A DNA stretch of 42,204 nt, from positions 1 through 42,204 of the IMG/VR virus record IMGVR_UViG_3300046167_000527; one strand, written 5' to 3'. The stretch's first letter is position 1. Each line of letters begins with the position of its first letter. The translations under genes and the position numbers were made by a program. The stretch comes from a virus. Below the pieces are notes generated by a model. That model saw only the letters and a list, made by a program, of their open reading frames with translations. It was not told where the DNA came from and searched no databases. Below are positions 4,163-19,970 of this stretch, in pieces.

Positions 4163-4240
4163 GTAAGTCATTGATCTCCCACACCTTTTTACATTTGTCT
4201 TTGCTCCCTCTATAAGAGATAATAGTCTTTCTGATGAGGG
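4163..4240 (+). promoter_or_regulatory. Early promoter cassette copy 1
   Basis: Begins GTAAGTCATTGAT; -35 TTGTCT at 4195-4200, a 17-base spacer, -10 GATAAT at 4218-4223, then AGTC and a GAGGG leader before the ATG at 4252. It shares the order and spacing of seven other copies in the window. Confidence 0.8.
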
Positions 4241-4251
4241 AAACACACAAT

Positions 4252-4455
4252 ATGACAAATGCTTTTGATATGGTAACTCCTGAGAAGATTGAACGTCGAC
4301 TCACTGGTTGGTCTACTGATGAGTGGATGAACACTCGAGCAAACTATGCTGAATACCTTGCTGCGTTTGGTCCTGAAGCAACCAAGACTTTCCGTCAGTT
4401 TGCTTATGGAATTGCTGCTCAAAATGAACTCGTATGCCGCTATGAAGGAGTGTAA
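4252..4455 (+). CDS. Small hypothetical early protein
   Basis: 67 residues from ATG 4252, chosen over an in-frame ATG at 4234 because the GAGGG Shine-Dalgarno lies between them. Starts MTNAFDMVTPEKIERRL. No family recognised. First gene after promoter cassette 1, so probably early. Confidence 0.65.
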   Translation: MTNAFDMVTPEKIERRLTGWSTDEWMNTRANYAEYLAAFGPEATKTFRQFAYGIAAQNELVCRYEGV

Positions 4456-4458
4456 GTA

Positions 4459-4677
4459 ATGAATTTTCGTAATGCTGTAGCAGAAGAGTTTCGTCGTGCG
4501 GTGAATGATCCGTCGAATATCGTGGATGGAAGTCCTAACTTTGACTTTGTGGAGGCAGATGTGATGTGCGAATTCACTGTCGACACTGTGATCGAGAACA
4601 TGGGTTCTCTGGAAGTGTTCTTTAAGTACTGTGCGGAACTTGCTGATCTGCACATTTCTCTTCAGGAGGCAAAGTAA
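4459..4677 (+). CDS. Small hypothetical early protein
   Basis: 72 residues, four bases after the upstream gene. Starts MNFRNAVAEEFRRAVNDP; acidic overall, no membrane segment. Its stop overlaps the next ATG (TAATG). Unknown function; part of the operon from cassette 1. Confidence 0.65.
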   Translation: MNFRNAVAEEFRRAVNDPSNIVDGSPNFDFVEADVMCEFTVDTVIENMGSLEVFFKYCAELADLHISLQEAK

Positions 4678-4856
4678 TGAATGATCTCTACACACTCTTG
4701 ACTGTCCGTGACGAGTTAGAGCTCGCGAGGAAGTTCGCACAGTCTAACGCTCGCGAGCAACGGTCTGGTCTACAGGCAGCAATGGACATAGTGCAGAGTG
4801 CTATCCAGAAGGAACTGGACGAACAGGAGAAGATGGCACAGGCATTTGGGGAATGA
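4677..4856 (+). CDS. Small hypothetical helical protein
   Basis: 59 residues starting in the TAATG overlap. Starts MNDLYTLLTVRDELELARKF; Glu/Gln/Lys/Arg-rich and likely entirely helical. No family recognised. Confidence 0.6.
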   Translation: MNDLYTLLTVRDELELARKFAQSNAREQRSGLQAAMDIVQSAIQKELDEQEKMAQAFGE

Positions 4857-4869
4857 GGCATCTAAATAG

Positions 4870-4886
4870 TCTCTTCCAAGAAGAGA
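4870..4886 (+). promoter_or_regulatory. Hairpin over the ribosome binding site of the next gene
   Basis: TCTCTTC-CAA-GAAGAGA forms a 7-bp stem with a 3-base loop. The right arm supplies the GAAGAGA ribosome binding site for the ATG at 4896, so folding would hide it. Regulatory effect is inferred. Confidence 0.4.
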
Positions 4887-4895
4887 TGTTTGTCA

Positions 4896-5075
4896 ATGAA
4901 CCGTAATGACGACTGCTGTAGAGATCTAAAATACCTGAGGGAACTGCTTCAGTTGCGCATTCGTGTGCTCGTTGGGGATGGGAAGATAACACCACCTCCA
5001 CATACTCGTGTGCGTCTGGAAGTGTTACGCTCTGTCGTAGAGGAACTCAATGTTCTTTTAGAGAAGAGAATGTAA
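4896..5075 (+). CDS. Small hypothetical protein
   Basis: 59 residues from ATG 4896; an in-frame TTG lies six bases upstream. Starts MNRNDDCCRDLKYLRELLQL and is probably helical. Its TAA stop (5073-5075) is also the first part of promoter cassette 2, the junction seen repeatedly in this region. Confidence 0.6.
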   Translation: MNRNDDCCRDLKYLRELLQLRIRVLVGDGKITPPPHTRVRLEVLRSVVEELNVLLEKRM

Positions 5076-5155
5076 GTTGTTGATTTCGTTCAACATTATT
5101 ACATTTGTCTTTGGTAGTGAATTGTACGATAATAGTCTTGTAGGTTGAGGAAACA
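5072..5155 (+). promoter_or_regulatory. Early promoter cassette copy 2
   Basis: GTAAGTTGTTGATT opens the cassette and includes the upstream stop codon. -35 TTGTCT at 5105-5110, 17-base spacer, -10 GATAAT at 5128-5133, then AGTCTTGTAGGTTGAGGAAAC. The transcript has an untranslated leader of about 120 bases before the next gene. Confidence 0.85.
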
Positions 5156-5203
5156 ACTGGATCCGTAAGGACTAAACTAACTGCATGTTTCCGAGTCGAC
5201 TGG

Positions 5204-5218
5204 AACCCTGAAAGGGTT
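5204..5218 (+). ncRNA. Leader stem-loop
   Basis: AACCCT-GAA-AGGGTT forms a 6-bp stem in the roughly 120-base leader between cassette 2 and the ATG at 5258. A very short reading frame (ATG 5184, MFPSRLEP) ends inside it. It may be a leader control element; this is structure only. Confidence 0.35.
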
Positions 5219-5257
5219 AGATTGAACTGAACGACCCAACCTACTCTGGAGAGAGAA

Positions 5258-5350
5258 ATGAAGCAGAACGAAGACGACATTGTAGCTGGTTTAATCGTTA
5301 TGGTTATACTCGGAACAATCCTTGGAGTAATGCTGGGACTCTCTGTATGA
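5258..5350 (+). CDS. Tiny membrane protein (30 aa)
   Basis: 30 residues after a strong GAGAG ribosome binding site. A short acidic head (MKQNEDD) is followed by one hydrophobic helix. Its TGA overlaps the next ATG (ATGA at 5347). One of several single-helix miniproteins in this operon. Confidence 0.6.
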   Translation: MKQNEDDIVAGLIVMVILGTILGVMLGLSV

Positions 5351-5535
5351 TCACCACTTCCGCATTAACCGCACATCTCGAGGGAACGTTTGAAGCACGA
5401 CTCGAGATCGCACAACGGAACTGGAAACGTTCCCACACTGAGGAGCATCGTATTGCTCTCCAGCATGCAAGAGAAACATATGATACCATCTTTGGTATCC
5501 TCTACGAATTCGATGAAGCAAACACAGGAAGATAA
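5347..5535 (+). CDS. Small hypothetical helical protein
   Basis: 62 residues from the ATGA overlap. Starts MITTSALTAHLEGTFEARLE; Glu/Arg/His-rich and probably a helical hairpin. No family recognised. Confidence 0.6.
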   Translation: MITTSALTAHLEGTFEARLEIAQRNWKRSHTEEHRIALQHARETYDTIFGILYEFDEANTGR

Positions 5536-5538
5536 GTT

Positions 5539-5784
5539 ATGAGCACCAATGTTGACAGTTTCTACTATAAGACTCCTCTCCACACTCGCATGACTCGTTG
5601 GGCAGAGAGCGGTAAGGCAACGAAGATCGCACTCCACCCACAGGACTACTATGTTCTGTCCGCACGTAATCTCGTAGAGAAGATGGAAGAAGAATTTAAA
5701 CTCCCTATCACCTGTCTGGGTGGAGAAGAGTCCTTGCGTAAGTGGATCAAAGAGTCCATCGACCGTAGCAAAGAAGAAGATTGA
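5539..5784 (+). CDS. Small hypothetical early protein
   Basis: 81 residues, three bases after the upstream stop. Starts MSTNVDSFYYKTPLHTR and contains ALHPQDYYVLSARNLVEKM, which suggests a compact alpha/beta fold. Its stop overlaps the next ATG (TGATG). Similar small proteins occur in tailed phages, but I cannot name the family. Confidence 0.65.
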   Translation: MSTNVDSFYYKTPLHTRMTRWAESGKATKIALHPQDYYVLSARNLVEKMEEEFKLPITCLGGEESLRKWIKESIDRSKEED

Positions 5785-5909
5785 TGGGCACCGGATCTCT
5801 AATCGTGGTGGGGATAGTGGTCGGGAGTTTCTTACTCACGATCATTCTCTCTCACCTTATTGCAACTCTCGGTAATGGAATATCAGGACCAGAAGATGAC
5901 AATGATTGA
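5784..5909 (+). CDS. Tiny membrane protein (41 aa)
   Basis: 41 residues: one long hydrophobic segment (IVVGIVVGSFLLTIIL) and a short acidic tail. Starts in the upstream stop (TGATG) and overlaps the next start. Probably a single-pass inner-membrane miniprotein. Confidence 0.55.
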   Translation: MGTGSLIVVGIVVGSFLLTIILSHLIATLGNGISGPEDDND

Positions 5910-6186
5910 ATATCTCCACAGTTTATCCGTCACCGAGTTGTTGGACATATTGATCGCACTCGGTCTAATATCAATACTGTTGATCACTATGGTGATTATA
6001 CGACAAGGTCTCATTAGAGATAAGTTGGATGAAGTTCCTCATCTAATTGCAACAAGCAATACTGATGAAGATGGAGAAGAGAAAGTAATCCACTGTTGGG
6101 AAGACCACCCAGATGCACCATTAGAGTGTATATGCGCAAGTGGTAAGAAAGAAGCAGGGGAACCATGCGTTCTGAATAGGCACTAA
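5896..6186 (+). CDS. Single-pass membrane protein with Cys-rich tail
   Basis: 96 residues from ATG 5896, chosen for the overlap with the upstream gene; earlier in-frame starts exist. One transmembrane segment at about residues 16-36 (ILIALGLISILLITMVII), then a polar domain whose end carries four Cys within about 25 residues (CW, CIC, CVL), possibly metal-binding. No family recognised. Confidence 0.6.
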   Translation: MTMIEYLHSLSVTELLDILIALGLISILLITMVIIRQGLIRDKLDEVPHLIATSNTDEDGEEKVIHCWEDHPDAPLECICASGKKEAGEPCVLNRH

Positions 6187-6187
6187 G

Positions 6188-6283
6188 ATGGAAACAAAAG
6201 AATTAATGGATCTGTTAACATTCGCAATGGTAATCTGTAGTACAGGTGCTGTCGCTGAGTGGTATCTTACGAGGGATCAGTAG
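6188..6283 (+). CDS. Tiny membrane protein (31 aa)
   Basis: 31 residues, MELM-type amphipathic start then a short hydrophobic helix with one Cys. It ends TAG directly before the next ATG. Weakly supported on its own; supported by tight packing with its neighbours. Confidence 0.45.
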   Translation: METKELMDLLTFAMVICSTGAVAEWYLTRDQ

Positions 6284-6406
6284 ATGGGATGGTTTCTGTG
6301 GATGGTAGGTGTCTGTGTAGCAGCAGGTGTCTATGGTGGATGGGAGATGGGTGCTATGTATGCTGCGGCATTCGTGCTGTTCATCTATGCTGCGAGTCGT
6401 GGATGA
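6284..6406 (+). CDS. Tiny two-helix membrane protein (40 aa)
   Basis: 40 residues, almost entirely Gly/Ala/Val/Trp hydrophobic (MGWFLWMVGVCVAAGV). Starts immediately after the upstream stop, and its TGA overlaps the next ATG. Likely an inner-membrane miniprotein; unknown role. Confidence 0.5.
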   Translation: MGWFLWMVGVCVAAGVYGGWEMGAMYAAAFVLFIYAASRG

Positions 6407-6693
6407 AGACTGAACCTAAATGGGTTGCCAAATACATCGACCGCAAACGTTGGAAGACGAATGGGAAGAGAACAGATAGAGAAGGCAATCCCATAACATT
6501 CCATCTAAAGACAAAAGATATAAGATTTCTGTTAGAGGAAGCAGGCATAGAGTATACTGATGTGGGAGGTGGCAGTGACCAATACTGTCTGGCAAGAGAT
6601 AATGATCTCGGTTCCTACACCATAGGCAACTGTCGGTTCATTACTAATAGAGAGAACACGAGGGATGCAATGCGCATCAAGGCAGGAGGGTGA
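6403..6693 (+). CDS. HNH-homing-like small protein
   Basis: 96 residues from ATG 6403 (ATGA overlap). The end, YTIGNCRFITNRENTRD, resembles the GYSxxNCRWxxxxEQ segment after the HNH core in phage homing endonucleases and HNH/AP2-like proteins, but no clear HNH catalytic triad is seen. It could be a degenerate HNH or DNA-binding protein. A hairpin spans its stop codon. Confidence 0.5.
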   Translation: MKTEPKWVAKYIDRKRWKTNGKRTDREGNPITFHLKTKDIRFLLEEAGIEYTDVGGGSDQYCLARDNDLGSYTIGNCRFITNRENTRDAMRIKAGG

Positions 6694-6711
6694 CCCCCTC
6701 CGTTGGTTTTT
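6685..6711 (+). terminator. Rho-independent terminator-like hairpin
   Basis: GGAGGG-TGACC-CCCTCC, a 6-bp GC-only stem, followed by GTTGGTTTTT. It overlaps the stop codon of the upstream gene and closes the operon that starts at cassette 2. Confidence 0.65.
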
Positions 6712-6777
6712 ACGGGACTCCTACGGTTTATGGGGTAAAGGTTTAGGATCCCCGACAATGCGACACGGACCACGCCG

Positions 6778-6803
6778 GACTACTCGCAGACTACTCGCAG
6801 ACT
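6778..6803. repeat. 11-bp direct tandem repeat in a gene-free gap
   Basis: GACTACTCGCA occurs twice in tandem plus a 4-base partial third copy. It lies in the 6712-6942 gap, which otherwise shows a run TTAAAAAAATTTTTTA (6845-6860) and a promoter. No gene is seen in that gap. Confidence 0.6.
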
Positions 6804-6885
6804 GACCCCTCCCCCTAACCTCCATGATGTTTGAAACGGATGGATTAAAAAAATTTTTTACGAGAAAAATACCTCCTTCGAGAGG

Positions 6886-6913
6886 TTGCTATATGAATCC
6901 AGTTGTGTATACT
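6886..6913 (+). promoter_or_regulatory. Sigma-70-type promoter, not of the cassette family
   Basis: TTGCTA (6886-6891), a 16-base spacer and TATACT (6908-6913), with an A-run/T-run UP-like element about 30 bases upstream. A strong AAGGAG ribosome binding site and ATG 6943 follow. Confidence 0.6.
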
Positions 6914-6942
6914 AGAGTCTATATGGTAAGGAGAAGATAATA

Positions 6943-7236
6943 ATGTTTGACTGCGATCTACCCCCGAGTCGTCCTGCACTACATGGGCATAGGGATGTCC
7001 TTGTGCACTTCATGTACGGAGAGACTCCTACTCGTTTTCGCATATATGAGAGTATGTACGATAGAGCAAAGGATGTCTTCTATAATGAAGACTCTACGTT
7101 CCGATATATCGTAGCATATGAGTTCCAACTCGTTACGAACAAAGACGATATTGATGAGTGGGTTGTTTCACCCCACAAGACTTACATCAACCTACAGGCA
7201 ATCTGTTCAATGAAAGTCATAGGATCCAACTCATGA
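6943..7236 (+). CDS. Hypothetical protein
   Basis: 97 residues after AAGGAGA. Starts MFDCDLPPSRPALHGHRD; soluble, with aromatic-rich beta-like segments. The stop overlaps the next ATG (ATGA at 7233). Family not recognised. Confidence 0.65.
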   Translation: MFDCDLPPSRPALHGHRDVLVHFMYGETPTRFRIYESMYDRAKDVFYNEDSTFRYIVAYEFQLVTNKDDIDEWVVSPHKTYINLQAICSMKVIGSNS

Positions 7237-7607
7237 GTACCGAAGATGACTCTGATGGTAAGGTAATATCTCTCGACGAGTTCCGACTCAAGCACAACAC
7301 AAACCCGATGGAAGAGTATGAACCAGTAGACTGGAACGGGTTGTTAAGTGGTGAATACGACATTATGCTGGAGAACCTAAAAGGATTGCTAGGTGAGATA
7401 CAGGATGATGAGATGCCCACCTACAGAGATTGGATCTCTCTATCTGCAGTGCTTGGTGTATTATCCGACACCTTAGACCACCTCTATGCTAATCAGGCAG
7501 TACAGTATGATAACGAACTGTATAATGCTGCTAATCAGATACGACAGTACACTACTGCCATGCAGGAGTTCGTACGACCCCATACTACATTCACGGAAGA
7601 GGAGTAA
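7233..7607 (+). CDS. Hypothetical acidic protein
   Basis: 124 residues from ATG 7233 (ATGA). It begins MSTEDDSDGKVISLDEFRLK, a short KVISLDEF-type motif often seen at the start of small phage proteins, then a helical domain with about ten Tyr/Trp. Coupled to the gene before. Function unknown. Confidence 0.65.
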   Translation: MSTEDDSDGKVISLDEFRLKHNTNPMEEYEPVDWNGLLSGEYDIMLENLKGLLGEIQDDEMPTYRDWISLSAVLGVLSDTLDHLYANQAVQYDNELYNAANQIRQYTTAMQEFVRPHTTFTEEE

Positions 7608-7613
7608 CACATT

Positions 7614-7856
7614 ATGACACCGCGAGAAGCACTATACCATCTCGTCATCGAATTAGGTCCAGTCCCGAACACGACTCGCAACGACAATCTCTCTCCGAAG
7701 GAGATCCGTCTTCGAGACTCGGTCGATGTGCTCAAGAACCTCATCGTCGAATCAGAGTCAAATACATCCCTTCAGAGTGAGGAAACAGACGACCCTATCG
7801 AAGCCGATCGATCAGACCTCATGGCATATTACTGCTCAGAGGCAAGCAAGCACTGA
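7614..7856 (+). CDS. Hypothetical protein
   Basis: 80 residues. GAGGAG lies about 10 bases before the ATG. Starts MTPREALYHLVIELG; predicted helical with an acidic Ser-rich tail. Last gene of the small operon from the promoter at 6886. Family not recognised. Confidence 0.6.
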   Translation: MTPREALYHLVIELGPVPNTTRNDNLSPKEIRLRDSVDVLKNLIVESESNTSLQSEETDDPIEADRSDLMAYYCSEASKH

Positions 7857-7934
7857 TCAGTGTGACTACAGCACGTGGTGGGTTTTTTAGACAGAAACGC
7901 AGACCGGCAGAGTCGGCAGGGAGAAATAGGTAAT

Positions 7935-8264
7935 ATGTCACAGAGTAGGAAACAATGGCAAAGAACACGAGAGTTTAAGATGGAGAATGGTGACCTGATC
8001 ACTCTCACAGAGAAAGTAAAGCAGTGGCACTATGACCGGAACCTTATTATTAAAGGTGCTACAGATAAGGATCAGTATATGAAACTGATTCAAGAGGCAG
8101 GAGAGTTATCTGATAATATCTGTAAGGGAAATGATATACGAGATGACATCGGAGACATGATGGTCGTCCTCATCAATATTGCTGAACGCAATGGTGTGAC
8201 AATGACCGCGTGCCTTGATCAAGCATGGGAAGACATTAAGGATCGGAAAGGGCACCATGGTTGA
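7935..8264 (+). CDS. MazG-like nucleotide pyrophosphohydrolase
   Basis: 109 residues from ATG 7935, which follows a GGGAGAAAT ribosome binding site; an upstream in-frame extension is poorly supported. It contains EAGE (E54, E57) and DDIGD (D71, D74), the ExxE and DxxD metal-binding pairs of all-alpha MazG-type NTP pyrophosphohydrolases. Phage MazG proteins are thought to hydrolyse nucleotides or alter host stringent signalling. It overlaps the next gene by eight bases. Confidence 0.8.
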   Translation: MSQSRKQWQRTREFKMENGDLITLTEKVKQWHYDRNLIIKGATDKDQYMKLIQEAGELSDNICKGNDIRDDIGDMMVVLINIAERNGVTMTACLDQAWEDIKDRKGHHG

Positions 8265-8439
8265 CGGAGTCTTCATCAAGGAGTCCGACAATCTACCAAG
8301 ACTACCCGATGACTGGGTGGAGTCTGGTGTCAAGGTTGCGTATTGGGAACCCACACCTGAACAGTTGGAGTTGGACCTTGAACCAAAGGGTTATACTCAT
8401 GTCTATAAGAACACAATAGGTGGATCAACCAAATACTGA
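8257..8439 (+). CDS. Small hypothetical protein
   Basis: 60 residues from ATG 8257, inside the end of the MazG-like gene. Starts MVDGVFIKESDNLPRL; a Pro-rich WEPTPEQLELDLEPKG segment in the middle. Its last base is the first base of the next start (TGATG). Unknown. Confidence 0.6.
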   Translation: MVDGVFIKESDNLPRLPDDWVESGVKVAYWEPTPEQLELDLEPKGYTHVYKNTIGGSTKY

Positions 8440-9131
8440 TGATCACACTCGGAGAATCTATCGGAGTATTTGATGACGTCGTGTCACGAGAGTGGTGCGA
8501 CGATGTCATTTGCATGTTCGAAAAGAAGATTACCGAAGCAGAGGGTCTACGCAAGGGTGATCCCGACGAGGATGTCAAGGGAGTTCTCTTTCGATCTAAT
8601 GAGAAACGCATAGATGTTGCGACTGGGATGCACAAGTACCAATCTATGGCGAGTCGACGAGAAGAGTTCTACACTGCACTTGAACCTGCCTTTGAATTGT
8701 ACATGCGGTCCATCACTGGGCAAGACAATAAGTCTTGGTGGGGAGACTTAGAGGAGATCGAGACCAAACTCCAACGCACACTTGCTGGTGGAGGGTTCTG
8801 TGTTCCTCATTTCGAGCAAGGCAACGACTCAGAGTGCGCACGACGATTTGGAGTCTACAGTCTCTATCTGAATGACCTACCTGAGCATTGCGGAACCGAG
8901 TTCCCCATGCACAATGCCATCCTCACTCCCAAGGCAGGACGTCTTGCGATCTGGCCAGCAGCATACACCCACCCCCATATGTCCTCTCCCGAGACTGGAC
9001 CAGACCAAGTATATCCTCACAGGGTGGTTCGTCTACCACATTCAGGGAAGCAACCGGCAGGTTCCCAAGACGTAAGTTGTTGTTATCATTCAGGTTCTTT
9101 AATTTGTCTTTGCTCACTTTTTGCGAGATAA
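8439..9131 (+). CDS. 2OG-Fe(II) oxygenase-like protein with a +1 frame break near its end
   Basis: The frame from ATG 8439 runs to 9131. It looks like a phage prolyl-4-hydroxylase-type 2OG-Fe(II) dioxygenase: FCVPHFEQG, a YSLYLND strand, GTEFP, then WPAAYTHPH, where the second metal His is expected. The usual ending KYILTGWFVY is not in this frame but in the +1 frame, which stops at TAA 9073-9075. That TAA is the first codon of promoter cassette 3, exactly as at other gene/cassette junctions, so the natural product probably ends at 9075. The break lies between about 8972 (run of five C) and 9010. Confidence 0.75.
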   Translation: MITLGESIGVFDDVVSREWCDDVICMFEKKITEAEGLRKGDPDEDVKGVLFRSNEKRIDVATGMHKYQSMASRREEFYTALEPAFELYMRSITGQDNKSWWGDLEEIETKLQRTLAGGGFCVPHFEQGNDSECARRFGVYSLYLNDLPEHCGTEFPMHNAILTPKAGRLAIWPAAYTHPHMSSPETGPDQVYPHRVVRLPHSGKQPAGSQDVSCCYHSGSLICLCSLFAR

Positions 9132-9148
9132 TAGTCTCATAAGTTAAG
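9072..9148 (+). promoter_or_regulatory. Early promoter cassette copy 3
   Basis: GTAAGTTGTTG opening; -35 TTGTCT at 9104-9109, 17-base spacer, -10 GATAAT at 9127-9132, then AGTCTCATAAGTTAAGGA. The cassette lies over the out-of-frame tail of the 8439 reading frame, which supports the gene really ending at 9075. Confidence 0.85.
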
Positions 9149-9157
9149 GAAATGAAT

Positions 9158-9334
9158 ATGGTAGTAACACTGAAGCACGTAGTTTATGAAGTCTCTGTAA
9201 TGAAGAACGGGAAGATGCGTCCCCGCACACTCCACAAGAAGGAGTTCCCTGAGACTTTTCGCTTCCCTGGAGATATAATCTTCATCGACGTCAACGGTCA
9301 GCAACGACCAGCATTAATCAAGAGTGTGAGTTAA
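9158..9334 (+). CDS. Small hypothetical early protein
   Basis: 58 residues. ATG 9158 is preferred over ATG 9152 because the AAGGA site is then seven to eight bases away. Starts MVVTLKHVVYEVSVMKNGKM; small beta-rich basic protein. Its last base overlaps the next ATG. Confidence 0.6.
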   Translation: MVVTLKHVVYEVSVMKNGKMRPRTLHKKEFPETFRFPGDIIFIDVNGQQRPALIKSVS

Positions 9335-9492
9335 TGGAGTTCTTTACTGTAAGGGTCGACCCCACTAGCATGGGTCGTCTACATAACTACTTTGCCACCG
9401 ACGACTGGGATACAATGCACCAGTCCATGGAGTTGATACTGTTGATGGGTGCAGATGATCCCGTCTACGGAGAGATGTGGATTAAGATATGA
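9334..9492 (+). CDS. Small hypothetical protein
   Basis: 52 residues starting in the TAATG overlap. Starts MEFFTVRVDPTSMGRLHNYF; acidic, soluble. Its TGA overlaps the next ATG (ATGA at 9489). Confidence 0.55.
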   Translation: MEFFTVRVDPTSMGRLHNYFATDDWDTMHQSMELILLMGADDPVYGEMWIKI

Positions 9493-9746: not shown

Positions 9747-9747
9747 T

Positions 9748-10044: not shown

Positions 10045-10285
10045 CATCCTGCTCCTCGTCCTCCTTGCCGGTTGTGGTGAACCCATGACCAGAGGTGAGG
10101 CAAAGTACCGAGTATGTGCTGGATGCCACGAGGGTGGCATAGGACCAAACCTCCGAGGCAGGGACGTCGCCGACTCCCTGCGATCCTTCCGAGATGGAGA
10201 GGGCAATCCTCTCATGCAGTCTCAGGCAAGTAACCTGTCCGATCAGGACATATCCGATATATCAGAGTATCTCCTAACCTATTGA
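10028..10285 (+). CDS. c-type cytochrome lipoprotein
   Basis: 85 residues from GTG 10028, chosen because it puts a lipoprotein signal directly after the start (TSILLLVLLAGC, lipid Cys16); an in-frame ATG at 9989 would give a longer head. The heme-binding motif CAGCH is at 30-34, followed by GGIGPNLRG as in small class I cytochromes c. Met63 in GNPLMQ is a candidate distal heme ligand, and the last segment (LSDQDISDISEYL) matches the usual C-terminal helix. Family role: periplasmic one-electron carrier between membrane complexes, matured by the host Ccm or Ccs system. All core elements are intact. Confidence 0.85.
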   Translation: MTIRTSILLLVLLAGCGEPMTRGEAKYRVCAGCHEGGIGPNLRGRDVADSLRSFRDGEGNPLMQSQASNLSDQDISDISEYLLTY

Positions 10286-10286
10286 T

Positions 10287-10355
10287 TCTATTCAAGTTTT
10301 CACTGTTGTCTTTGGTACTGGGTTGCGGGATAATAGATTCAATGGTTAAGGAGAT
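10287..10355 (+). promoter_or_regulatory. Early promoter cassette copy 4
   Basis: Starts just after the cytochrome stop (TTGATTCTATTCAAGTTTT). -35 TTGTCT at 10306-10311, 17-base spacer, -10 GATAAT at 10329-10334, then AGATTCAATGGTTAAGGAG. Confidence 0.8.
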
Positions 10356-10359
10356 TGAT

Positions 10360-10700
10360 ATGGAACTGGATTTTGATACCGCTGTTGATAAGTTGCTTGA
10401 TGCCGCTGCTACCGACTTTGCTCAATGGAAAGCAAGAGGAGAATATGGTAGTGCCAACGACTTCGAAGACTTCCGAGAGAACATCTACCGCGACGGTGGT
10501 CGTAAGTACCTCCGCATCACCAAGAGTCAAGGTGGTCAGCAGATGCGTCTGGGGTTTCGTCGTGTTAGCAGACGGTCCAAAGTTCAAGTGTGGTGACATC
10601 CTGAAGGCAGCATCTTGGGCAGCACCCGCCACCTAACAAAGCACGCGGCAACATCTTCGAAGAGTATGATGTTCGCTGGACCGGTCCAAACTACCTGTAA
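10360..10700 (+). pseudogene. Conserved T4-like phage protein, frame broken twice
   Basis: From ATG 10360 the frame reads MELDFDTAVDKLLDAAATD and continues to about 10541. The expected continuation VWGFVVLADGPKFKCGDILK is in the +1 frame, and after a stop at 10634-10636 the ending ARGNIFEEYDVRWTGPNYL is in the next +1 frame, stopping at 10700. I recall similar small phage proteins with the continuous order V-x-F...GDILKA..W.AP...ARGNI...WTGP. The ancestral gene is therefore about 112 codons with two one-base frame changes. Either a decayed gene or two sequencing insertions; the well-preserved protein sequence on both sides favours the latter. Confidence 0.6.
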
Positions 10701-10956: not shown

Positions 10957-11237
10957 AACTAAAGATTCTAAGAGAGACCACGAACTTCACCAAGGTGGAG
11001 TACACCGTACCCAAACACGACTATCTGGTCGAGGGTGGACATGGTGGTCGGTTGGTCGCATACCGCAAGCAAGGCAGTGACGTCTGGGAGAAGTTCTCCA
11101 GACTGGCACCATTCAGTAAGAAGCACCGTTCGTTCAAGGAGTTGCGGGAAGAGATTCCTGTCGAGTTCGTGACTCCGGTTGCTTCAAATCCATGGGACAA
11201 TAGATCCTACAATTCATTAGAGGCATTCATGGCATGA
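10953..11237 (+). CDS. Hypothetical protein
   Basis: 94 residues from GTG 10953 (GTGA overlap). Starts MKLKILRETTNFTKVEYTVP; basic, soluble, with beta-like repeats of Tyr/Val. The next gene starts inside its end (ATGA at 11234). Family not recognised. Confidence 0.65.
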   Translation: MKLKILRETTNFTKVEYTVPKHDYLVEGGHGGRLVAYRKQGSDVWEKFSRLAPFSKKHRSFKELREEIPVEFVTPVASNPWDNRSYNSLEAFMA

Positions 11238-13383: not shown

Positions 13384-13625
13384 TGGTAGATATGAAGGAA
13401 GTGAAGGAAACTCTGAGCACCAAGGCAGAGGAGGCAATGAAACGTCCCCTCGATGAGAACCCAGTTGACCAAGTCATTGTCAACAAACTCCCCGACACAG
13501 ACAACGAAGAAGTAGACAAAGTCTATCAGGCACGTTGGGTCTGGTATCATACCCTCCTAGCACTGGAACTGTTCTTCACGAATCTGTTCCTGTTTATTTT
13601 AATTATCATAACATTGGTGAAGTAA
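13380..13625 (+). CDS. Small C-terminal tail-anchored membrane protein
   Basis: 81 residues from ATG 13380 (ATGA overlap). A charged soluble part is followed by one transmembrane segment close to the C-terminus (LFLFILIIITL), so the protein is probably tail-anchored. Unknown function. Confidence 0.6.
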   Translation: MMVDMKEVKETLSTKAEEAMKRPLDENPVDQVIVNKLPDTDNEEVDKVYQARWVWYHTLLALELFFTNLFLFILIIITLVK

Positions 13626-13864: not shown

Positions 13865-14154
13865 TGGCGAAGAAGACCGAGATAGATTACAAGTACAGTG
13901 AAGACCGCATCCTCGAAGAACTCAAGGCATATGTCGATAAGACATACGGTGAGCACTACTCTAAGAACAAGTTCCAAGCAACCGAGTTCATCATCGACGG
14001 TGGCCACGGAGAAGGTTTCTGCCTCGGTAACATCTTAAAATACACCCAGCGTTATGGCAAGAAGGCAGGCAAGAATCGTGCTGACCTGATGAAAGTTGTA
14101 CACTATGCCATCATCGCACTGCACGTCCACGACCTCGGTCTGGAAGATGATTAA
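13864..14154 (+). CDS. DUF3310-like (SaV-like) protein
   Basis: 96 residues. The central block FCLGNILKYTQRYGKKAGKN followed by ADLMKVVHYAIIAL matches the conserved core of DUF3310/SaV-like phage proteins (F..GN..KYI.RYG.K......DL.K..HY). These occur in many phages, often near nucleotide metabolism genes; a nucleotide kinase role is known for the T7 gp1.7 relatives. It overlaps both neighbours. Confidence 0.75.
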   Translation: MAKKTEIDYKYSEDRILEELKAYVDKTYGEHYSKNKFQATEFIIDGGHGEGFCLGNILKYTQRYGKKAGKNRADLMKVVHYAIIALHVHDLGLEDD

Positions 14155-14723
14155 TCATTTCGAGTTCAGGAATCTCTGGCCAACTCCTCTGTTAAAGACT
14201 CGGGTCGACCTGCCTCACGAAGAAATCTCAGAGTATGTCAGAGAAAAATTCTCTGGGTGGGATGAGTACACCAGTTTCTACAACGAAGAATTCAACGAGC
14301 ATACCAAGAAAGGGTTGCCGTATCGGCAACTCATGGAACGTGCTATGACAAGAGGCGGGGATCTGTTTCTGAAGGAAAGAAACTATAGTGTCCCAGAGGA
14401 GAAACTATCCTATTGGTTCTCTGTCTACAACCACTCAGACGACCACTGTCTACACACCCACCCCCAATACTCTCATTGCCGGAACATACTACCCGTATGC
14501 CGATGAGAAAAGTTCTCCTATCCGATTCCGGTCACCCACTCTGGTTACTCAGATGCACTCTGAACCGAGGATCGAACCAGAGGATTTGTTCCACGTTCAC
14601 CAACCCAGCACCGGTGACATGCTCTTCTGGCCAGCATGGTTAGAGCACGAAGTGCGACCCCAGAAAGAAGTGGAAGACGGCAAATCCAGAATCGCAATCT
14701 CCTTCAACTTCGGTCGATGCTAA
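14147..14723 (+). CDS. 2OG-Fe(II) oxygenase-like protein, split by a +1 frame break
   Basis: From ATG 14147 (ATGA overlap) the protein starts MINHFEFRNLWPTPLLKTRV and reaches YWFSVYNHSDDHCLHTHP, then runs off-family to a stop at 14506. In the +1 frame the family sequence resumes exactly as NTLIAGTYYP, then WPAWLEHEVRP and RIAISFNFGRC, stopping at TAA 14723. The HTHP...LxAGxYY...WLxHxV...R pattern is that of the phage 2OG-Fe(II) oxygenase group. Dropping one C from the five-C run at 14461-14465 restores a 191-residue protein. The TAA at 14721 is also the start of promoter cassette 5. Confidence 0.75.
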
Positions 14724-14803
14724 GTCACTGATTCTATTCAGGTTTCTTACATTTGTCCTTGCTCCTCAAATATGAGATAATATCTCTTTGTGACTGAGGA
14801 GTA
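14721..14803 (+). promoter_or_regulatory. Early promoter cassette copy 5
   Basis: TAAGTCACTGATTCTATTCA opens it; -35 TTGTCC at 14753-14758, 17-base spacer, -10 GATAAT at 14776-14781, then a GACTGAGGAG leader before ATG 14811. Confidence 0.8.
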
Positions 14804-14810
14804 GGGTTTA

Positions 14811-15369
14811 ATGTTCGGAGTCGACGTCGAAAAACGAGCACGACTGGGCACGATCAGTAGGAAAAGACTGGACCCAGCAGACCGCATCGGACGCATCCGA
14901 GACATCCACATCTATGCCAAAGACTTTGTCTTCTATGACGACTCCTCGGAGTATGCGGGTAAGCAGGTCGAGGTCTTTCTCTTTGACGAGTCGTACACTC
15001 GTCGAATCATGACCATGCAGTTGAAGAGGCAGGTGGGAGACACCTACTCTGTGGAGATGGTCAACGTCGACTCCAAGTACCAAGGTTTCAAACTGGCACC
15101 CAAGATCTACAAGAAATTAGTTCAACGGGGGATCACCCTCGTCACCGGAGGGTTGCAGAGCCGAGGAGGGCAGTATATCTGGTCTCAGTTGGTAGGCACC
15201 AAGGGTATCCAGATGTCCGCATTCAAACTGTGGACTCGAGAGGTCTCCCCGCGTCCTCCACGATGTCTATCGAAACGAGCACGAGAACAGGGTCGAGGTC
15301 GAGGGACACGACGCATGGAGTCTGTCGGACTATAACCGATGGGGATTCGTGATGACCAAGGCATCGTAA
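14811..15369 (+). CDS. Acetyltransferase (GNAT)-like protein, +1 frame break near the end
   Basis: From ATG 14811 the frame runs to 15335, but after about residue 145 it turns into Arg/Pro-rich nonsense. In the +1 frame a sensible tail (RVLHDVYRNEHENRVEVEGH, then DAWSLSDYNRWGFVMTKAS) ends at TAA 15367-15369, which again is the opening of a promoter cassette. The break fits one extra base in CCCC at 15247-15250. The central part SKYQGFKLAPKIYKKL then GITLVTGGLQSRGGQYIW matches small phage GNAT-like proteins (acceptor unknown). Confidence 0.6.
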
Positions 15370-15450
15370 GTTGTTGATTTGTTTCAGTTTATTTAATTTG
15401 TCGTTGGACCTGAATTGTGAGATAATAGTCTCATAGGTTGAGGAAACAAC
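15366..15450 (+). promoter_or_regulatory. Early promoter cassette copy 6
   Basis: GTAAGTTGTTGATT; -35 TTGTCG at 15398-15403, 17-base spacer holding GGACCTGAATTG, -10 GATAAT at 15421-15426, then AGTCTCATAGGTTGAGGAAAC. Confidence 0.85.
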
Positions 15451-15478
15451 CAAACGTTTTAACTAAGGAGAATATATT

Positions 15479-16339
15479 ATGAAAAAGTCAATCCTAGCAT
15501 TAGCAATCGCGTCTACCTTGTCTGCTCCAGCATCTGCCGGTTTCAGTTTCGGGGACCTTGCCGATAAGGCAAAGAGCATCGGAGGAGATGTCCTCGAAGT
15601 GGCAGTAGATGCCGCAGCACAAGTCTCTGAGCAACAGTCTGGACCTGCTCTTCCTGCGGTGATCACCAAAGATCAGGACTGCACTCCTTATGTAGATTAC
15701 TCTGAAAAGTATTCTCAATGCCGTGAGCAACGTAGCATCGCGATGAAGCAGTATCAAGAAGATCAACGTGCGGCAAAATCGAAGCAACGAGCAGAAGCAG
15801 AAGCAAATCGTCAAGCAGACCTAGCAGCACGGGAAGAAACCCGACGCAATGCTGAAATCGCTCGTGAGCAAGAGAAGCAAGATAGAGTTGCAAAGCAGGA
15901 AGCACAGAAGAATGCTGACCAAGCAAAGGCACAATCGCACATCGACTCTTTGACTTTGATGTCAAAGGACGAACTTGCTGCTTCTCTTGAATCTGGAATC
16001 CCTGGAAGAGTCGCTTCTGATGACGCTTCTTTTGATATCGGATTTATCGTCAAGATTGATGGAGTGCAACTCTCCAAGGACTACAGGTTCAAAGGTGAAG
16101 TTGTTTGTTTCGACGAGTGGGACGATCAAGTCGGTCGCGTCGTCGATGTGACTGGTGATGTGGTCTTTGACACGTCCGGTCAAATGGAGTTCAACTTTGG
16201 TTCGACACAGAATGTTGAGCAAAAGAAGTTCGCCGGAACTTGGGTTGTCTCTCAGTGGAACATAATGCATATGGGTATCACCTACCAGACGTCTCTGGAA
16301 ATCGTTGAGTGCCGATTTGATTCTCTCCGTATCAAGTAA
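15479..16339 (+). CDS. Exported coiled-coil protein
   Basis: 286 residues after AAGGAG. A clear signal peptide (MKKSILALAIASTLSAPASA) predicts periplasmic export. Residues about 90-155 are a highly charged Glu/Arg/Lys/Ala/Gln coiled coil. The C-terminal 110 residues look like a beta domain with two Cys that could bond. It is a single-gene unit with a cassette on each side (6 and 7). No family recognised; a role in the envelope of the infected cell is inferred. Confidence 0.7.
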   Translation: MKKSILALAIASTLSAPASAGFSFGDLADKAKSIGGDVLEVAVDAAAQVSEQQSGPALPAVITKDQDCTPYVDYSEKYSQCREQRSIAMKQYQEDQRAAKSKQRAEAEANRQADLAAREETRRNAEIAREQEKQDRVAKQEAQKNADQAKAQSHIDSLTLMSKDELAASLESGIPGRVASDDASFDIGFIVKIDGVQLSKDYRFKGEVVCFDEWDDQVGRVVDVTGDVVFDTSGQMEFNFGSTQNVEQKKFAGTWVVSQWNIMHMGITYQTSLEIVECRFDSLRIK

Positions 16340-16416
16340 GTTGTTGATTCTATTCAGGTTCCGACGCTTGTCGTTGGACCTGAATTGCGTCATAATATCC
16401 TTTGAGTTGAGGAGAA
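16336..16416 (+). promoter_or_regulatory. Early promoter cassette copy 7
   Basis: GTAAGTTGTTGATT, whose TAA is the upstream stop; -35 TTGTCG at 16368-16373, 17-base spacer, -10 CATAAT at 16391-16396, then ATCCTTTGAGTTGAGGAG. TTCAGGT and ACCTGAA flank the -35 as an inverted repeat. Confidence 0.8.
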
Positions 16417-16420
16417 AGAT

Positions 16421-16594
16421 ATGTCAAAAGATTTAGTAGAAGCAGCACGGTTGATCAACGAAGAGATCAAGTGGGCAGATATGCACCAAGATGAAGAAGC
16501 AGTTGCCGGACTGGTTGCTGCTCTGAACATCGTTGAAGACCTAATGACTTTGAGAGAGTTGGAAGCGGCACAGGAAGTCGCGGGACAGGCATGA
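16421..16594 (+). CDS. Small acidic helical protein
   Basis: 57 residues; GAGGAG lies close upstream. Starts MSKDLVEAARLINEEIKWAD. Ala/Glu-rich helices. The next gene starts in its end (ATGA at 16591). It resembles that neighbour in size and helical character, and the two may be diverged relatives. Confidence 0.6.
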   Translation: MSKDLVEAARLINEEIKWADMHQDEEAVAGLVAALNIVEDLMTLRELEAAQEVAGQA

Positions 16595-16761
16595 AAGAGT
16601 TGATCAAGATTCGTGACAGACTAAGCGACGAATACAAGCACGCTGTTGACACCATGGATACCTATGGTGAAGCAGATGGTCTGTTCCTCGCTATCAAGAT
16701 GGTAGACGAGCAGATTGATGCTCTTATAGAGCAAGCGGACTATCGGGCAGCAGCAGTATGA
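16591..16761 (+). CDS. Small helical protein
   Basis: 56 residues from the ATGA overlap. Starts MKELIKIRDRLSDEYKHAVD; helical. Overlaps the next ATG (ATGA at 16758). Unknown. Confidence 0.6.
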   Translation: MKELIKIRDRLSDEYKHAVDTMDTYGEADGLFLAIKMVDEQIDALIEQADYRAAAV

Positions 16762-17075
16762 AGCACGGTTCCATGACTCACGACTTCACTGGTCGCAAGA
16801 TCAAGAAAAAGAAACCTACAGGAGAGGTGTTTACTAAATACTCTGTGCCAGCATTCAAAGAGATGGAGAAGAGTATAAAACCTCACTTCCGTCGGGGTGC
16901 TGACATAGAGTATACCAGTGTAGACGACTCTGCTGGGACAGGGATCTGTGCGGCACCAGAGAAGAAAGAGTACACTGGTACTTTGGTAAAGGGTATTGGC
17001 ACTATGCACAAGAGCAATGCCATCCCAATCATTGACGAACAACAGATGAAAGATCTGGCAAGCATGAGGCGATAA
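16758..17075 (+). CDS. Conserved T4-like phage protein
   Basis: 105 residues. A Lys-rich N-terminal stretch (GRKIKKKKPTGEV), a Pro/aromatic middle (PAFKEMEKSIKPHFRRG) and the ending KGIGTMHKSNAIPI then MRR. The pattern YTGTxxKGIxTMHKSNAxPxxxxxxxxxxxxMRR is one I recognise from many T4-like marine phages. Function unknown. Overlaps the next gene by one base. Confidence 0.75.
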   Translation: MKHGSMTHDFTGRKIKKKKPTGEVFTKYSVPAFKEMEKSIKPHFRRGADIEYTSVDDSAGTGICAAPEKKEYTGTLVKGIGTMHKSNAIPIIDEQQMKDLASMRR

Positions 17076-17419
17076 TGGAAACAATTACTGACATCAACCC
17101 ACAAGCACTCTATGCCGCTGAAGCAATCAGTGAGTATCTGGAGAAAGACGGACACTCTGACCACGACGTGGAAGGCAACATCCGGTTTATCTGGCAGATG
17201 GAGCAAGAAGGTGCGTTGGTCGAACTACACATGATCAAGACCACCATCGACGGTATGTATGCTCTGGCAGTTGCCGACTACGGTGCCAACGGTGAGGTTG
17301 CTCGTGAGTGGTCTAAGAAGAACAAAGGGCACTTCAAGAAAGTGAAGAGTCTCCTTTGCCAGCACATGATGGGTCACACCGTCTACGATACCGAGACAGG
17401 CACACTGCTCGGTGAGTGA
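17075..17419 (+). CDS. Hypothetical protein upstream of the alternative oxidase
   Basis: 114 residues from ATG 17075. Starts METITDINPQALYAAEAISE; mixed alpha/beta, no membrane segment. Its TGA overlaps the GTG start of the alternative oxidase, so the two are translationally coupled. No family recognised. Confidence 0.6.
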   Translation: METITDINPQALYAAEAISEYLEKDGHSDHDVEGNIRFIWQMEQEGALVELHMIKTTIDGMYALAVADYGANGEVAREWSKKNKGHFKKVKSLLCQHMMGHTVYDTETGTLLGE

Positions 17420-17982
17420 ATGGTTTCGCCAAGTCGCAGACAAAGTTCTTCAGGTTCTTTGCTGACACTTTCTTCCGCAAGAAGTATGGTCAACGCGCGC
17501 TCGTTCTCGAGACAGTCGCAGGAGTCCCTGGAATGATAGGTGGTATGCTGACCCACCTCAAGTCTCTACGTCGACTTGAACGAGGGAATGGAGGCAAGAT
17601 CCACGAGTTGCTTTCCGAGGCAGAGAACGAACGTAAGCACCTGATGTTCTTCATGGAGTTAGTTCAACCAACCTTCATCGAACGGACGATCATCGTCGTG
17701 GCACAGTTGGTCTTCTGGCATTACTACCTGATCCTGTATCTGCTCTTCCCGAAGACTGCACACCTCACAACCGCATACTTCGAGATCGAAGCAGTGAGAT
17801 CCTATACTGAGTATTTGGAGTTGATCAAGTCAGGAGAGATCGAGGACGTACCTTGTCCACAGATCGCCATTGATTACTACGAACTGGTGCAGGACGCCAA
17901 ACTGTCTGACATGGTTCGGTTCATCCGATGGGACGAGGCGAGGCATAGTGACAACAACTTTGCATTTGCAGCAGAGTATTGA
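17416..17982 (+). CDS. aox: Alternative oxidase (AOX/PTOX family di-iron quinol oxidase)
   Basis: 188 residues from GTG 17416 (GTGA overlap; no better start seen). All AOX signatures are present: LET (Glu32), NERKHLM (Glu72, His75), EIEA then SYTEYL (Glu125), and RWDEARHSDNN (Glu174, His177). Together these give the six di-iron ligands. A hydrophobic segment at about 91-112 fits membrane attachment in one leaflet. Family role: oxidises quinol and reduces oxygen to water without pumping protons, bypassing the cytochrome chain. It is slightly shorter than cellular AOX and lacks the N-terminal extension. Plastoquinol-type relatives are known in cyanophages; this window has no photosynthesis genes, so a respiratory role is more likely. 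Confidence 0.93.
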   Translation: MNGFAKSQTKFFRFFADTFFRKKYGQRALVLETVAGVPGMIGGMLTHLKSLRRLERGNGGKIHELLSEAENERKHLMFFMELVQPTFIERTIIVVAQLVFWHYYLILYLLFPKTAHLTTAYFEIEAVRSYTEYLELIKSGEIEDVPCPQIAIDYYELVQDAKLSDMVRFIRWDEARHSDNNFAFAAEY

Positions 17983-17998
17983 TTTTTGAAAAGAATTG

Positions 17999-18017
17999 CG
18001 ATAGAATTGTTCTATCG
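17999..18017 (+). promoter_or_regulatory. Perfect inverted repeat between oxidase and nuclease genes
   Basis: CGATAGAA-TTG-TTCTATCG, an 8-bp stem with a 3-base centre, followed by TTTAAGAG. It could be a weak terminator after the oxidase or an operator for the nuclease gene; the T-run is too short to decide. Confidence 0.5.
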
Positions 18018-18034
18018 TTTAAGAGAAGTATATT

Positions 18035-18748
18035 ATGACAAACAAGAAGTTTAACATCAACCTAGCAGAACTCCCTAAGATCAAGAGGGTGACCGTCGAA
18101 GGCAAACGACACTATCAGTTATCCGATGGTGAGTCTCTGGCATACCCTTCAGTCACCACTGTCATCTCCGGATGCAAGAAGACTCAGGCAGGTTTGCGAG
18201 CATGGAAGAAGAGAGTCGGTAAGGCAGAAGCACAGCGTATCTCTACGCAGGCATCTACCCGAGGAACTTCTGTCCACCAGTTGATCGAGGACTATTGTCA
18301 GGGTCTGGAGTCGGAAGGCAAGATCATGCCTAACGCATTTGATATGTTCACTCGACTGCGTAATGTCGCAGACGAGCACATCGATAACATTCGAGTCATC
18401 GAAGGGTTGATGTACTCTGAGCATTTGCGATCAGCAGGCACAGTTGATATGATCGCAGAGTTTGATGGTAAGTTGTCAGTCATTGACTGGAAGACATCCA
18501 ACAAACCTAAGACCCGATCTATGATCTACAATTATTTTAAGCAAGAAGCAGCATACGCTGTGATGTTCGAAGAGATGACTGGCATTGCAGTCCCTCAGTT
18601 GGTAACTGTCATCACCACCGTCTGTGGCGAGTCTCAGGTATTTGTTGAGCACCGCGACGAGTGGATTCCAGGTTTTATAGAGTTAAGGGATCAGTATGAG
18701 TTGGAATTGCAGCGCAAGTTGGAATTACAGGATAGGGCATCGTCCTAA
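18035..18748 (+). CDS. PD-(D/E)XK exonuclease (MGME1/Cas4-like)
   Basis: 237 residues. YPSVTTVIS near residue 38, then RGTSVH (His81), GTVDMI (Asp138) and VIDWKTS (Asp151, Lys153) give the GxxD...DxK core of the PD-(D/E)XK nuclease fold, with the RGTxxH helix typical of MGME1-like and RecB-type phage exonucleases. Such proteins degrade single-stranded ends during phage recombination or host DNA breakdown. It has its own ribosome binding site (AAGAGAAG). Confidence 0.85.
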   Translation: MTNKKFNINLAELPKIKRVTVEGKRHYQLSDGESLAYPSVTTVISGCKKTQAGLRAWKKRVGKAEAQRISTQASTRGTSVHQLIEDYCQGLESEGKIMPNAFDMFTRLRNVADEHIDNIRVIEGLMYSEHLRSAGTVDMIAEFDGKLSVIDWKTSNKPKTRSMIYNYFKQEAAYAVMFEEMTGIAVPQLVTVITTVCGESQVFVEHRDEWIPGFIELRDQYELELQRKLELQDRASS

Positions 18749-18770
18749 GACAGAACCACTTCTGGGTCAT

Positions 18771-18968
18771 ATGATCTATGAAGTGTTCTATGATCAAGAC
18801 GGTAACGTCAAGATGTATACGGTGAATCCGGTTTCTCCCTTTGGAGATATTCCGGACGAGTTGTATGAAGATATGTCTAATATGATGAGAGCATTCGACG
18901 AGGAACCTCTCAATCTTGACTACATAGATTACCTGTTAGCAAGGAAGGCAAGGTCCGAAGAGGAATAG
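18771..18968 (+). CDS. Small acidic protein
   Basis: 65 residues from ATG 18771; an in-frame ATG at 18696 inside the nuclease gene has a better AAGGGA site and would give 90 residues. Starts MIYEVFYDQDGNVKMYTVNP; acidic. Coupled to the nuclease gene; possibly its partner. Unknown family. Confidence 0.6.
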   Translation: MIYEVFYDQDGNVKMYTVNPVSPFGDIPDELYEDMSNMMRAFDEEPLNLDYIDYLLARKARSEEE

Positions 18969-19411
18969 TTTCGCCAGTGGGATTGGGTATGGTTACGAAG
19001 GCATGACTGGGGTTGATGTCTTGAATGGTTCGGTGCGTCCGAACGGGGTCGTAATCCATTTGAAGTAAAAAAATCTTTTATGACTTTTTTTTACTCATCC
19101 GTACATTTCGACGGTATAACTTGTCTAAATAATTCTATCAGAATTGAATGCTCGTTTAATCTGAATTTGTACCGTGGAAAACGTCAGTCCTCCACCTGAC
19201 TTGATCGGATCGTAGATGCCGCATGCTCATGCGGCATGATTCCCCCCGTCTTAAAAAATCCCTAAATAATCTAAACGTAATTAATTGCGCTCTTAATATA
19301 AGACAATCTTCGTATTATAAGAGCAGTCAGTTCTAAATACTATTGGTGATTTGATGCATACCACATGCCTTATGCTTGCTTCTATGAGTCACCAACAAGA
19401 GGGGCACGGAA
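18969..19411. other. Structured gene-free gap of about 440 bp
   Basis: No convincing gene. It contains a GTTCGG/CCGAAC hairpin (19028-19044), A- and T-runs (19066-19093), a 10-bp palindrome (19216-19237), an inverted repeat GCTCTTA/TAAGAGC (19289-19324) and three CTAAATA octamer-like boxes (about 19124, 19262 and 19332). A small RNA, a replication origin or late-promoter variants are all possible. Confidence 0.5.
19216..19237 (+). other. Strong palindromic hairpin
   Basis: ATGCCGCATG-CT-CATGCGGCAT, 22 bases with complementary arms. As RNA it would form at least 8 bp around a small loop. No T-run follows (GATTCCCCCC instead), so it is not a standard terminator. Confidence 0.6.
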
Positions 19412-19807
19412 ATGACTGACGAAAGGATCTCGGAGGTCGAGACTAAACTGTACACCCACGAAGGCAGGATAAAAGCAACAGAGGTTGACGTTCGGCAGAT
19501 AGTAGGCAACATCGATAGGATTGAAGACCACATGATTCGTAGTGGTGACAAACCTATCAACTATGGTGCTATCGCGAGTGTTATTGTTGCTTTCCTAAGT
19601 GTGATGGGCACGGCGGTCTTTGGCATAACAAATTATGTCGATCAGCAAATCCAGCATGTGAAGGATTCACGTGCGGTCTATGAAATGCGTGTTATGGAAA
19701 ACGCGGCAGCGGTTGATGAGTTAGATACCATCATCCACGATAGACTCGGTCGTTTGGAGGAACGATCACGTTCTCTGGAAGAGGACGTTCGGGAAATGCA
19801 CGATTAA
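19412..19807 (+). CDS. Single-pass membrane coiled-coil protein
   Basis: 131 residues; GAGGGG precedes the ATG. A coiled-coil head (about 1-45) is followed by one hydrophobic helix (52-73, ASVIVAFLSVMGTAVFGI) and a second charged coiled coil. The layout resembles small phage membrane proteins placed near lysis or exclusion genes, but no family is clear. It stands alone between a structured gap and a terminator. Confidence 0.65.
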   Translation: MTDERISEVETKLYTHEGRIKATEVDVRQIVGNIDRIEDHMIRSGDKPINYGAIASVIVAFLSVMGTAVFGITNYVDQQIQHVKDSRAVYEMRVMENAAAVDELDTIIHDRLGRLEERSRSLEEDVREMHD

Positions 19808-19843
19808 CCTCTCATAATGAGCGTTCAGTTAAACGCACAACTA

Positions 19844-19876
19844 ATGGGCACCCTTCGGGGTGCCCATTTTCGTTTA
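19844..19876 (+). terminator. Rho-independent terminator
   Basis: ATGGGCACCC-TTCG-GGGTGCCCAT, a 10-bp stem with a stable TTCG tetraloop, followed by TTTCGTTT. It ends the 19412 transcript just before cassette 8. Confidence 0.88.
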
Positions 19877-19888
19877 GGAAAGGATTCT

Positions 19889-19970
19889 GTAAGTTGTTGT
19901 TTTTGTTCAGGTTTTCAAACTTTGTCTTTGGACCTGAGATAAGAGATAATAGTATCTGAGTTGAGGAGAA
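19889..19970 (+). promoter_or_regulatory. Early promoter cassette copy 8
   Basis: GTAAGTTGTTG; -35 TTGTCT at 19922-19927, 17-base spacer with GGACCTGAG, -10 GATAAT at 19945-19950, then AGTATCTGAGTTGAGGAG. Here it follows a terminator instead of a gene stop codon, yet still opens with GTAAG, so the opening is conserved for itself. Confidence 0.85.

Follow-up and report, generated by a model that had tools for sequence, protein, structure and literature searches.

A repeated, portable promoter module with a predicted IHF-type site between accessory genes of an uncultured marine phage and its relatives

The window analysed here, the whole 42,204-nucleotide stretch of IMG/VR virus record IMGVR_UViG_3300046167_000527 (positions 1 to 42,204), carries eight copies of a promoter cassette of about 80 bases among its small accessory genes, and the cassette recurs in related contigs. 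The cassette is a real, repeated and portable promoter module, and judged from its sequence it probably (at roughly 70%) joins a stop codon, a site for integration host factor (IHF), a sigma70 promoter and a ribosome site. An upstream block, GTAAGTTGTTGATTCTATTCAG-TTTTT, is followed by a -35 box (TTGTCTTTG), a 17-base spacer, the sequence GATAATA and a leader that ends in a TTGAGGA-type ribosome site, with the start codon directly after it in most copies. A portable module of gene end, promoter and ribosome site among accessory genes had been proposed from the letters of the window (the original prediction), and this was borne out, the module being kept in relatives and the gene content differing at the cassettes. 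The upstream block, which matches an IHF-type site, had been overlooked.

All eight predicted copies are present at their places, on the + strand from 4.16 to 19.97 kb (Table 1). Seven start coordinates stood, and the fourth copy begins at about 10273 rather than 10287. The exact 17-base spacer holds in 8/8 copies, and the words proposed for the rest of the cassette proved too strict: GATAAT occurs in seven copies (CATAAT at 16336) and TTGTC(T/G) in seven (TTGTCC at 14721), and exact forms of the TTGAGGA leader, TTCAGGTT and GTAAGTTGTTGATT are limited to four, four and three of the eight, respectively. A matrix trained on the same eight copies scored them at 71-105 bits, a match by construction. 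More informative is how far everything else falls behind: over both strands of the 42,204 bases the next-highest score was -9.5 bits, and hence this matrix found no ninth copy in the window.

The module was also found when relatives were scanned, with 98 unique copies recovered by an iterative hidden Markov model (HMM) over loci. Seventeen cassettes, all in one direction, lie in the 153,883-base record G002, 12 of them within its last ~30 kb. The 97-copy counts used below come from 26 contigs, a few of them near duplicates, and four further HMM matches that could not be anchored were dropped. In 64 unique promoters collected with an HMM of the promoter half, the TTG after the -35 hexamer and the entire -10 box are near invariant. 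Among 50,697 named phage records, megablast of the window gave no match and blastn with two cassettes gave no convincing match. The cassette HMM found nothing below an E value of 0.03 in 40-kb pieces of C48C1 and Melnitz-3 and in 150 of the 164 kb of RB49.

The IHF consensus is printed as TAAnnnnTTGATW in an excerpt of PMC10380432, and an excerpt of PMC7581858 gives WATCAANNNNTTR with an AT-rich 5' part, the reverse of TAA-N4-TTGAT-W. The window holds four exact occurrences of TAAnnnnTTGATW, every one in a cassette, compared with 0.60 expected, and none of 100 shuffles reached four. The remaining four cassettes carry the consensus with one mismatch at the same place. In 88 unique blocks (two wrongly anchored copies were left out), the consensus is exact in 70, has one mismatch in 17 and two mismatches in one. 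Information content is 1.34-2.18 bits at the nine specified positions, compared with 0.86-1.44 bits at the four N positions. An A/T-rich element lies beside the core, as a T tract that begins 9 bases past it, with T in 65-81 of the 88 blocks at the five columns +22 to +26. The distance from the block to the -35 box is 32 bases in 74 copies, 31 in 22 and 30 in one (97 copies), or about three helical turns.

Three tests were free of selection on the block. One is the window itself, and the others are the promoter-half HMM and an exact promoter-only scan of IMG/VR. The promoter-half HMM was built without the block; in 48 of its 64 unique promoters the exact consensus stands 31-32 bases 5' of the -35 box, at this distance another 14 show a single mismatch, and two lack the consensus. 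The promoter-only scan returned 20 stretches with 25 distinct places after removal of repeats, of which 17 have the exact consensus, two have one mismatch and six lack it; five of these six lie in open frames of at least 358 codons, as expected of chance matches. Two observations on IHF-type sequences stand apart from the cassettes. The contig L247 has two exact consensus words, at 16895 and 16923, which lie 28 bases apart outside cassettes. In the betaproteobacterial contigs L222 and L225, GTAAGTTGTTGATTTTATTCA adjoins the 3' ends of tRNA-Leu and tRNA-Cys genes, as the IHF arm of an attachment site might.

Several points weigh against the IHF assignment. One-mismatch words occur in the window at chance level (15 found, 16.5 expected), and thus the four inexact cassette sites count by position only. 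Sixteen of the 26 contigs behind the 97-copy and 88-block counts were also in the block-pattern scan, which biases these counts to conserved blocks, and the sequences given to the promoter-half HMM include contigs fetched by the block pattern. A degenerate scan for an IHF site with TTGTCTTTG gave mainly unrelated AT-rich coding DNA, so that the pair of IHF core and TTGTCTTTG is not a specific signature by itself. The geometry of IHF sites at lambda pL or Mu Pe differs from that of a site abutting the -35 box, and IHF bound next to this box could also repress. A host without IHF would make the assignment fail as stated. Lastly, conservation goes beyond what the IHF consensus demands, as N4 is biased (GTTG in 46/88 blocks) and flanks such as TTCA are kept.

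This extra conservation is what would be expected if the block were bound by a regulator that the phage itself encodes and that recognises a motif similar to the IHF consensus. As 21 records yielded no HU/IHF-family gene, such a regulator would have to come from another family. We consider this quite unlikely, as the consensus match, a T tract at nearly the distance seen in lambda H' and the near match of TAAGTAGTTGATT in lambda attP need no unknown factor. If the block is an IHF site, the same lack of an HU/IHF-family gene means that the acting factor would be that of the host.

The block also ends genes. Among the 97 copies, the block TAA closes an upstream frame of at least 40 codons in 50 and its TGA does so in 16; such a frame reads through in three and is absent in 28, so that the block supplies the upstream stop in 66/97 copies. 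The proposal that the cassette TAA doubles as the upstream stop thus holds for the window copies at 5073, 9073, 14721 and 16337; TGA serves instead at 10275, and three copies have no frame of at least 40 codons. A gene end joined to an A/T-rich UP element for the alpha subunits of RNA polymerase, with the IHF likeness coincidental, would account for these stops and for the T tract, which is placed around -44 to -40 relative to the expected start, where a proximal UP subsite would be found. The best conserved part of the block, TAA....TTGAT, is 20-32 bases 5' of the -35 box, however, and TTGAT past the stop is near invariant. TAA is retained in 25 of the 26 unique copies in which the block closes no frame of at least 40 codons, which argues that the block, although it serves as a gene end, is conserved for other reasons as well. 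Moreover, contig L075 has three copies in which an IHF-like block is inverted and abuts the -35 of TTGC(C/T)A...ATAAT promoters (reverse complement, near 10993 and 8694). A stop codon does not explain inverted blocks, and their position before the same promoter type suggests that the block acts as DNA and not as RNA or a stop codon. No inverted-block family was found beyond L075. On these grounds an UP element with a coincidental IHF likeness is unlikely, and the IHF-type site remains our preferred assignment.

The cassettes had been compared with promoter-early stem-loop (PeSL) cassettes of T4-type phages, which are reportedly known from RB49/phi1 (from Arbiol in 2010) and PST/nt-1 (from Comeau in 2014). 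Recombination between neighbouring PeSL copies can form mini-circles. A true PeSL, in which an early promoter and a stem-loop terminator insulate neighbouring genes and mediate shuffling as in RB49/phi1, would fit the repeated sigma70-type promoters among accessory genes and the differing gene content there. A hairpin does lie 5' of cassette 8, and in alignment the blocks of two related copies, in L058 and L066, contain a GC-rich hairpin followed by T's, which the hairpin scan cut off. That scan detected a hairpin with T's after it in the block of 0/90 unique copies (background 0.6%) and within 80-100 bases upstream of 1/90, that of cassette 8 (background 1.9-2.4%), whereas, applied to 150 kb of RB49, it found hairpins at 14/71 strong promoters over a background of 3.2%. 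Folding energies of the block are similar to those of shuffles (mean z -0.3). Conversely, the exact IHF consensus occurs within 70 bases of only 1/71 strong RB49 promoters, compared with 73/90 cassette copies. The role of a stem-loop or terminator was rejected on the hairpin counts and the RB49 control, and a true PeSL is contradicted by the sequence and very unlikely. The comparison stands for portable, strong sigma70-like promoters in multiple intergenic copies (eight in the window, 17 in G002) among accessory genes of varying content, with gene exchange between relatives as a pattern that fits recombination, and it falls for the defining stem-loop terminator. By the stem-loop the cassettes are not PeSLs, although they would resemble them as a seam for gene traffic; their sequence points to a new variant with an IHF-type site.

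Gene content at the cassettes was compared in the window and the relatives L007, G005 and G004, which have a common backbone, with genes called by a simple script and families assigned by blastp. L007 is about 70-97% identical to the window in DNA over most of its length. In all four, family F9 is followed by a cassette and the genes beyond that cassette differ. The window has F31 as well as a 286-amino acid gene and two more cassettes ahead of F32; G005 has F12-F32; G004 has F10 and another gene, then a cassette; and L007 ends soon after F31. In the window and L007, cassette 3 precedes F12 and cassette 2 precedes F10, whereas the F9 cassette precedes F12 in G005 (63-65% identity) and F10 in G004 (~60% identity). 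A cassette sits exactly between F22 and F23 in L007, and in the window these genes overlap as TAATG. About 270 additional bases separate cassette 5 of L007 from the F31 region that is matched in the window.

The neighbouring G004 cassettes at 8328 and 8683 have identical promoter halves (50/50 bases) and blocks that are 77% alike, and the cassettes ahead of F14 have the left end TAACCTATTGATT in common in three relatives and differ in their right halves. These patterns fit recombination or conversion within cassettes, and drift is possible for the F14 right halves. The genes behind the cassettes had no Pfam family above the cut-off and matched only PHROGs of unknown function. Three window genes, F2, F1 and F9 (8439-9131, 7935-8439 and 14105-14723), appear split or frame-shifted relative to single longer frames of L007, and assembly errors or decay are possible. 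The non-coding leader behind cassette 2 (5141-5257) shares 95.8% identity with L007 across 118 bases, and directly beyond it the two sequences are much less similar. The leader folds into a closed, branched form and is possibly a structured RNA; it matched no Rfam family at the gathering threshold, and no exact 25-base stretch of it recurred in other IMG/VR contigs.

We infer from these features a putative IHF-assisted early promoter; binding by IHF, expression early in infection and a host with IHF are predictions. The stop codon of the preceding gene sits within the predicted IHF site (TAAnnnnTTGATW, then a T-rich tract), 30-32 bases 5' of a host-sigma70 promoter (TTGTCTTTG and GATAAT, nearly always with a 17-base spacer) that ends in a ribosome-binding leader. 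In the first minutes of infection, IHF of the host would bind and sharply bend the DNA directly 5' of the -35 box, the bend would recruit more RNA polymerase and the small accessory genes would be strongly transcribed early; late genes would use T4-type TATAAATA promoters instead. IHF would activate rather than repress, an assignment made because of the precedent of Mu Pe, on which deletion of the IHF site has a negative effect according to an excerpt of PMC3820752. Recombination between module copies could swap, insert or delete whole genes and leave reading frames and expression unharmed, because the module spans stop codon to start codon and is repeated.

A broader proposal is tentative and, in our view, rather doubtful: a marine clade of lytic T4-type phages may have placed its accessory early genes, one promoter at a time, under the control of the host nucleoid protein IHF, with the block of IHF site and promoter as the exchange seam, such that incoming genes come under an IHF-dependent promoter with the stop of their neighbour supplied. 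IHF bending may also help to bring cassettes together for recombination. If true, T4-type phages would have a portable-promoter solution for gene traffic in which a host DNA-bending site replaces the terminator, and host IHF would control the accessory arsenal of uncultured marine phages. The 80-base signature could then help to locate early genes of such phages, and host IHF would be a checkable constraint on host range.

The window contains seven T4-type late-promoter-like TATAAATA sites where 0.5 would be expected. All are on the + strand and outside the stretch that runs from the first cassette to the last; six of them lie at 3043, 23220, 25081, 31530, 31803 and 34543, and the other is listed in Table 1. 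The genome thus appears to be divided into cassette-driven early genes and late genes. G002 has a T4-type core with portal (phrog_213), tail sheath, terminase, a gp46-like recombination gene and helicase. The window encodes NrdA and NrdB, and no core virion gene was recognised among 29 distinct window proteins scanned against PHROGs. The sigma-factor family PF04545 had no match in five records. No psbA-family gene was found in 20 records, which argues weakly against a cyanobacterial host, and IHF is confined to few phyla, such as the proteobacteria, according to an excerpt of PMC10380432. A cyanophage early promoter was dropped as a working idea on these two grounds. Repeats were also seen in the window, with three tandem 31-base repeats at 3706-3798, ahead of the first cassette, and, inside long open reading frames (ORFs), repeats of about 54 bases at 35190-35448 and of 81/138 bases at 25412-25768.

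Table 1. Cassettes and neighbouring signals in the window. The first coordinate of each -35/-10 range is the start of the -35 box.
Feature	Coordinates	Strand	IHF-type site	-35/-10	Context
Cassette 1	4163..4243	+	4164-4176 (TAAGTCATTGATC, 1 mismatch)	4195-4223	leader GATGAGGG; then ORF 4252-4455
Cassette 2	5072..5154	+	5073-5085, exact	5105-5133	TAA is stop of upstream ORF; conserved non-coding leader behind
Cassette 3	9072..9152	+	9073-9085 (TAAGTTGTTGTTA, 1 mismatch)	9104-9132	then ORF 9158-9334 (family F12)
Cassette 4	10274..10354	+	10275-10287 (TAACCTATTGATT), exact	10306-10334	TGA is stop of upstream ORF; then ORF 10360-10596 (family F14)
Cassette 5	14720..14801	+	14721-14733 (TAAGTCACTGATT, 1 mismatch)	14753-14781	behind family F9 in all four compared relatives
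Cassette 6	15366..15446	+	15367-15379, exact	15398-15426	L007 counterpart identical
Cassette 7	16336..16416	+	16337-16349, exact	16368-16396 (CATAAT)	TAA is stop of upstream 286-aa ORF
Cassette 8	19889..19970	+	19890-19902 (TAAGTTGTTGTTT, 1 mismatch)	19922-19950	ahead of ORFs 19975-20094 and 20091-20447 (F34, F20)
Hairpin resembling intrinsic terminator	19843..19868	+			just 5' of cassette 8; sole such pairing among the eight window cassettes
TATAAATA, T4-type late-promoter-like	20879..20886	+			ahead of ORF 20903-22186

Parts of the cassette have counterparts in known systems. Its host sigma70 form is that of T4 early promoters, at which, to our knowledge, no IHF site is known. The listings of an open-access literature search with IHF and phage-promoter terms included no paper that deals with IHF at early promoters in T4-like phages. 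The PeSL cassettes described in an excerpt of PMC4503421 are alike in being short, repeated early-promoter modules among small accessory genes of varying content. The present cassettes differ from them in having an IHF-type site where a PeSL has its stem-loop terminator, and in their -35 (TTGTCTTTG). We take TAAGTAGTTGATT, TAATATATTGATA and CAACAAATTGATAAGCAATGCTTTTTT to be the lambda attP IHF sites H1, H2 and H', respectively. Lambda attP (NC_001416) contains all three; the first is one base off TAAGTTGTTGATT of the cassette block, and the spacing from core to T tract is 8 bases in H' and 8-9 in the cassettes. In contrast to the cassettes, the IHF sites of attP serve integration and not a promoter. 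Lambda pL is an early promoter of a phage that likewise has a site for host IHF. Mu Pe is alike in this, and IHF affects its transcription according to an excerpt of PMC3820752. Lambda pL and Mu Pe are each one promoter, whereas the predicted IHF site described here is present in many copies per genome, lies beside the -35 box, is coupled to gene ends and belongs to a putative T4-type phage.

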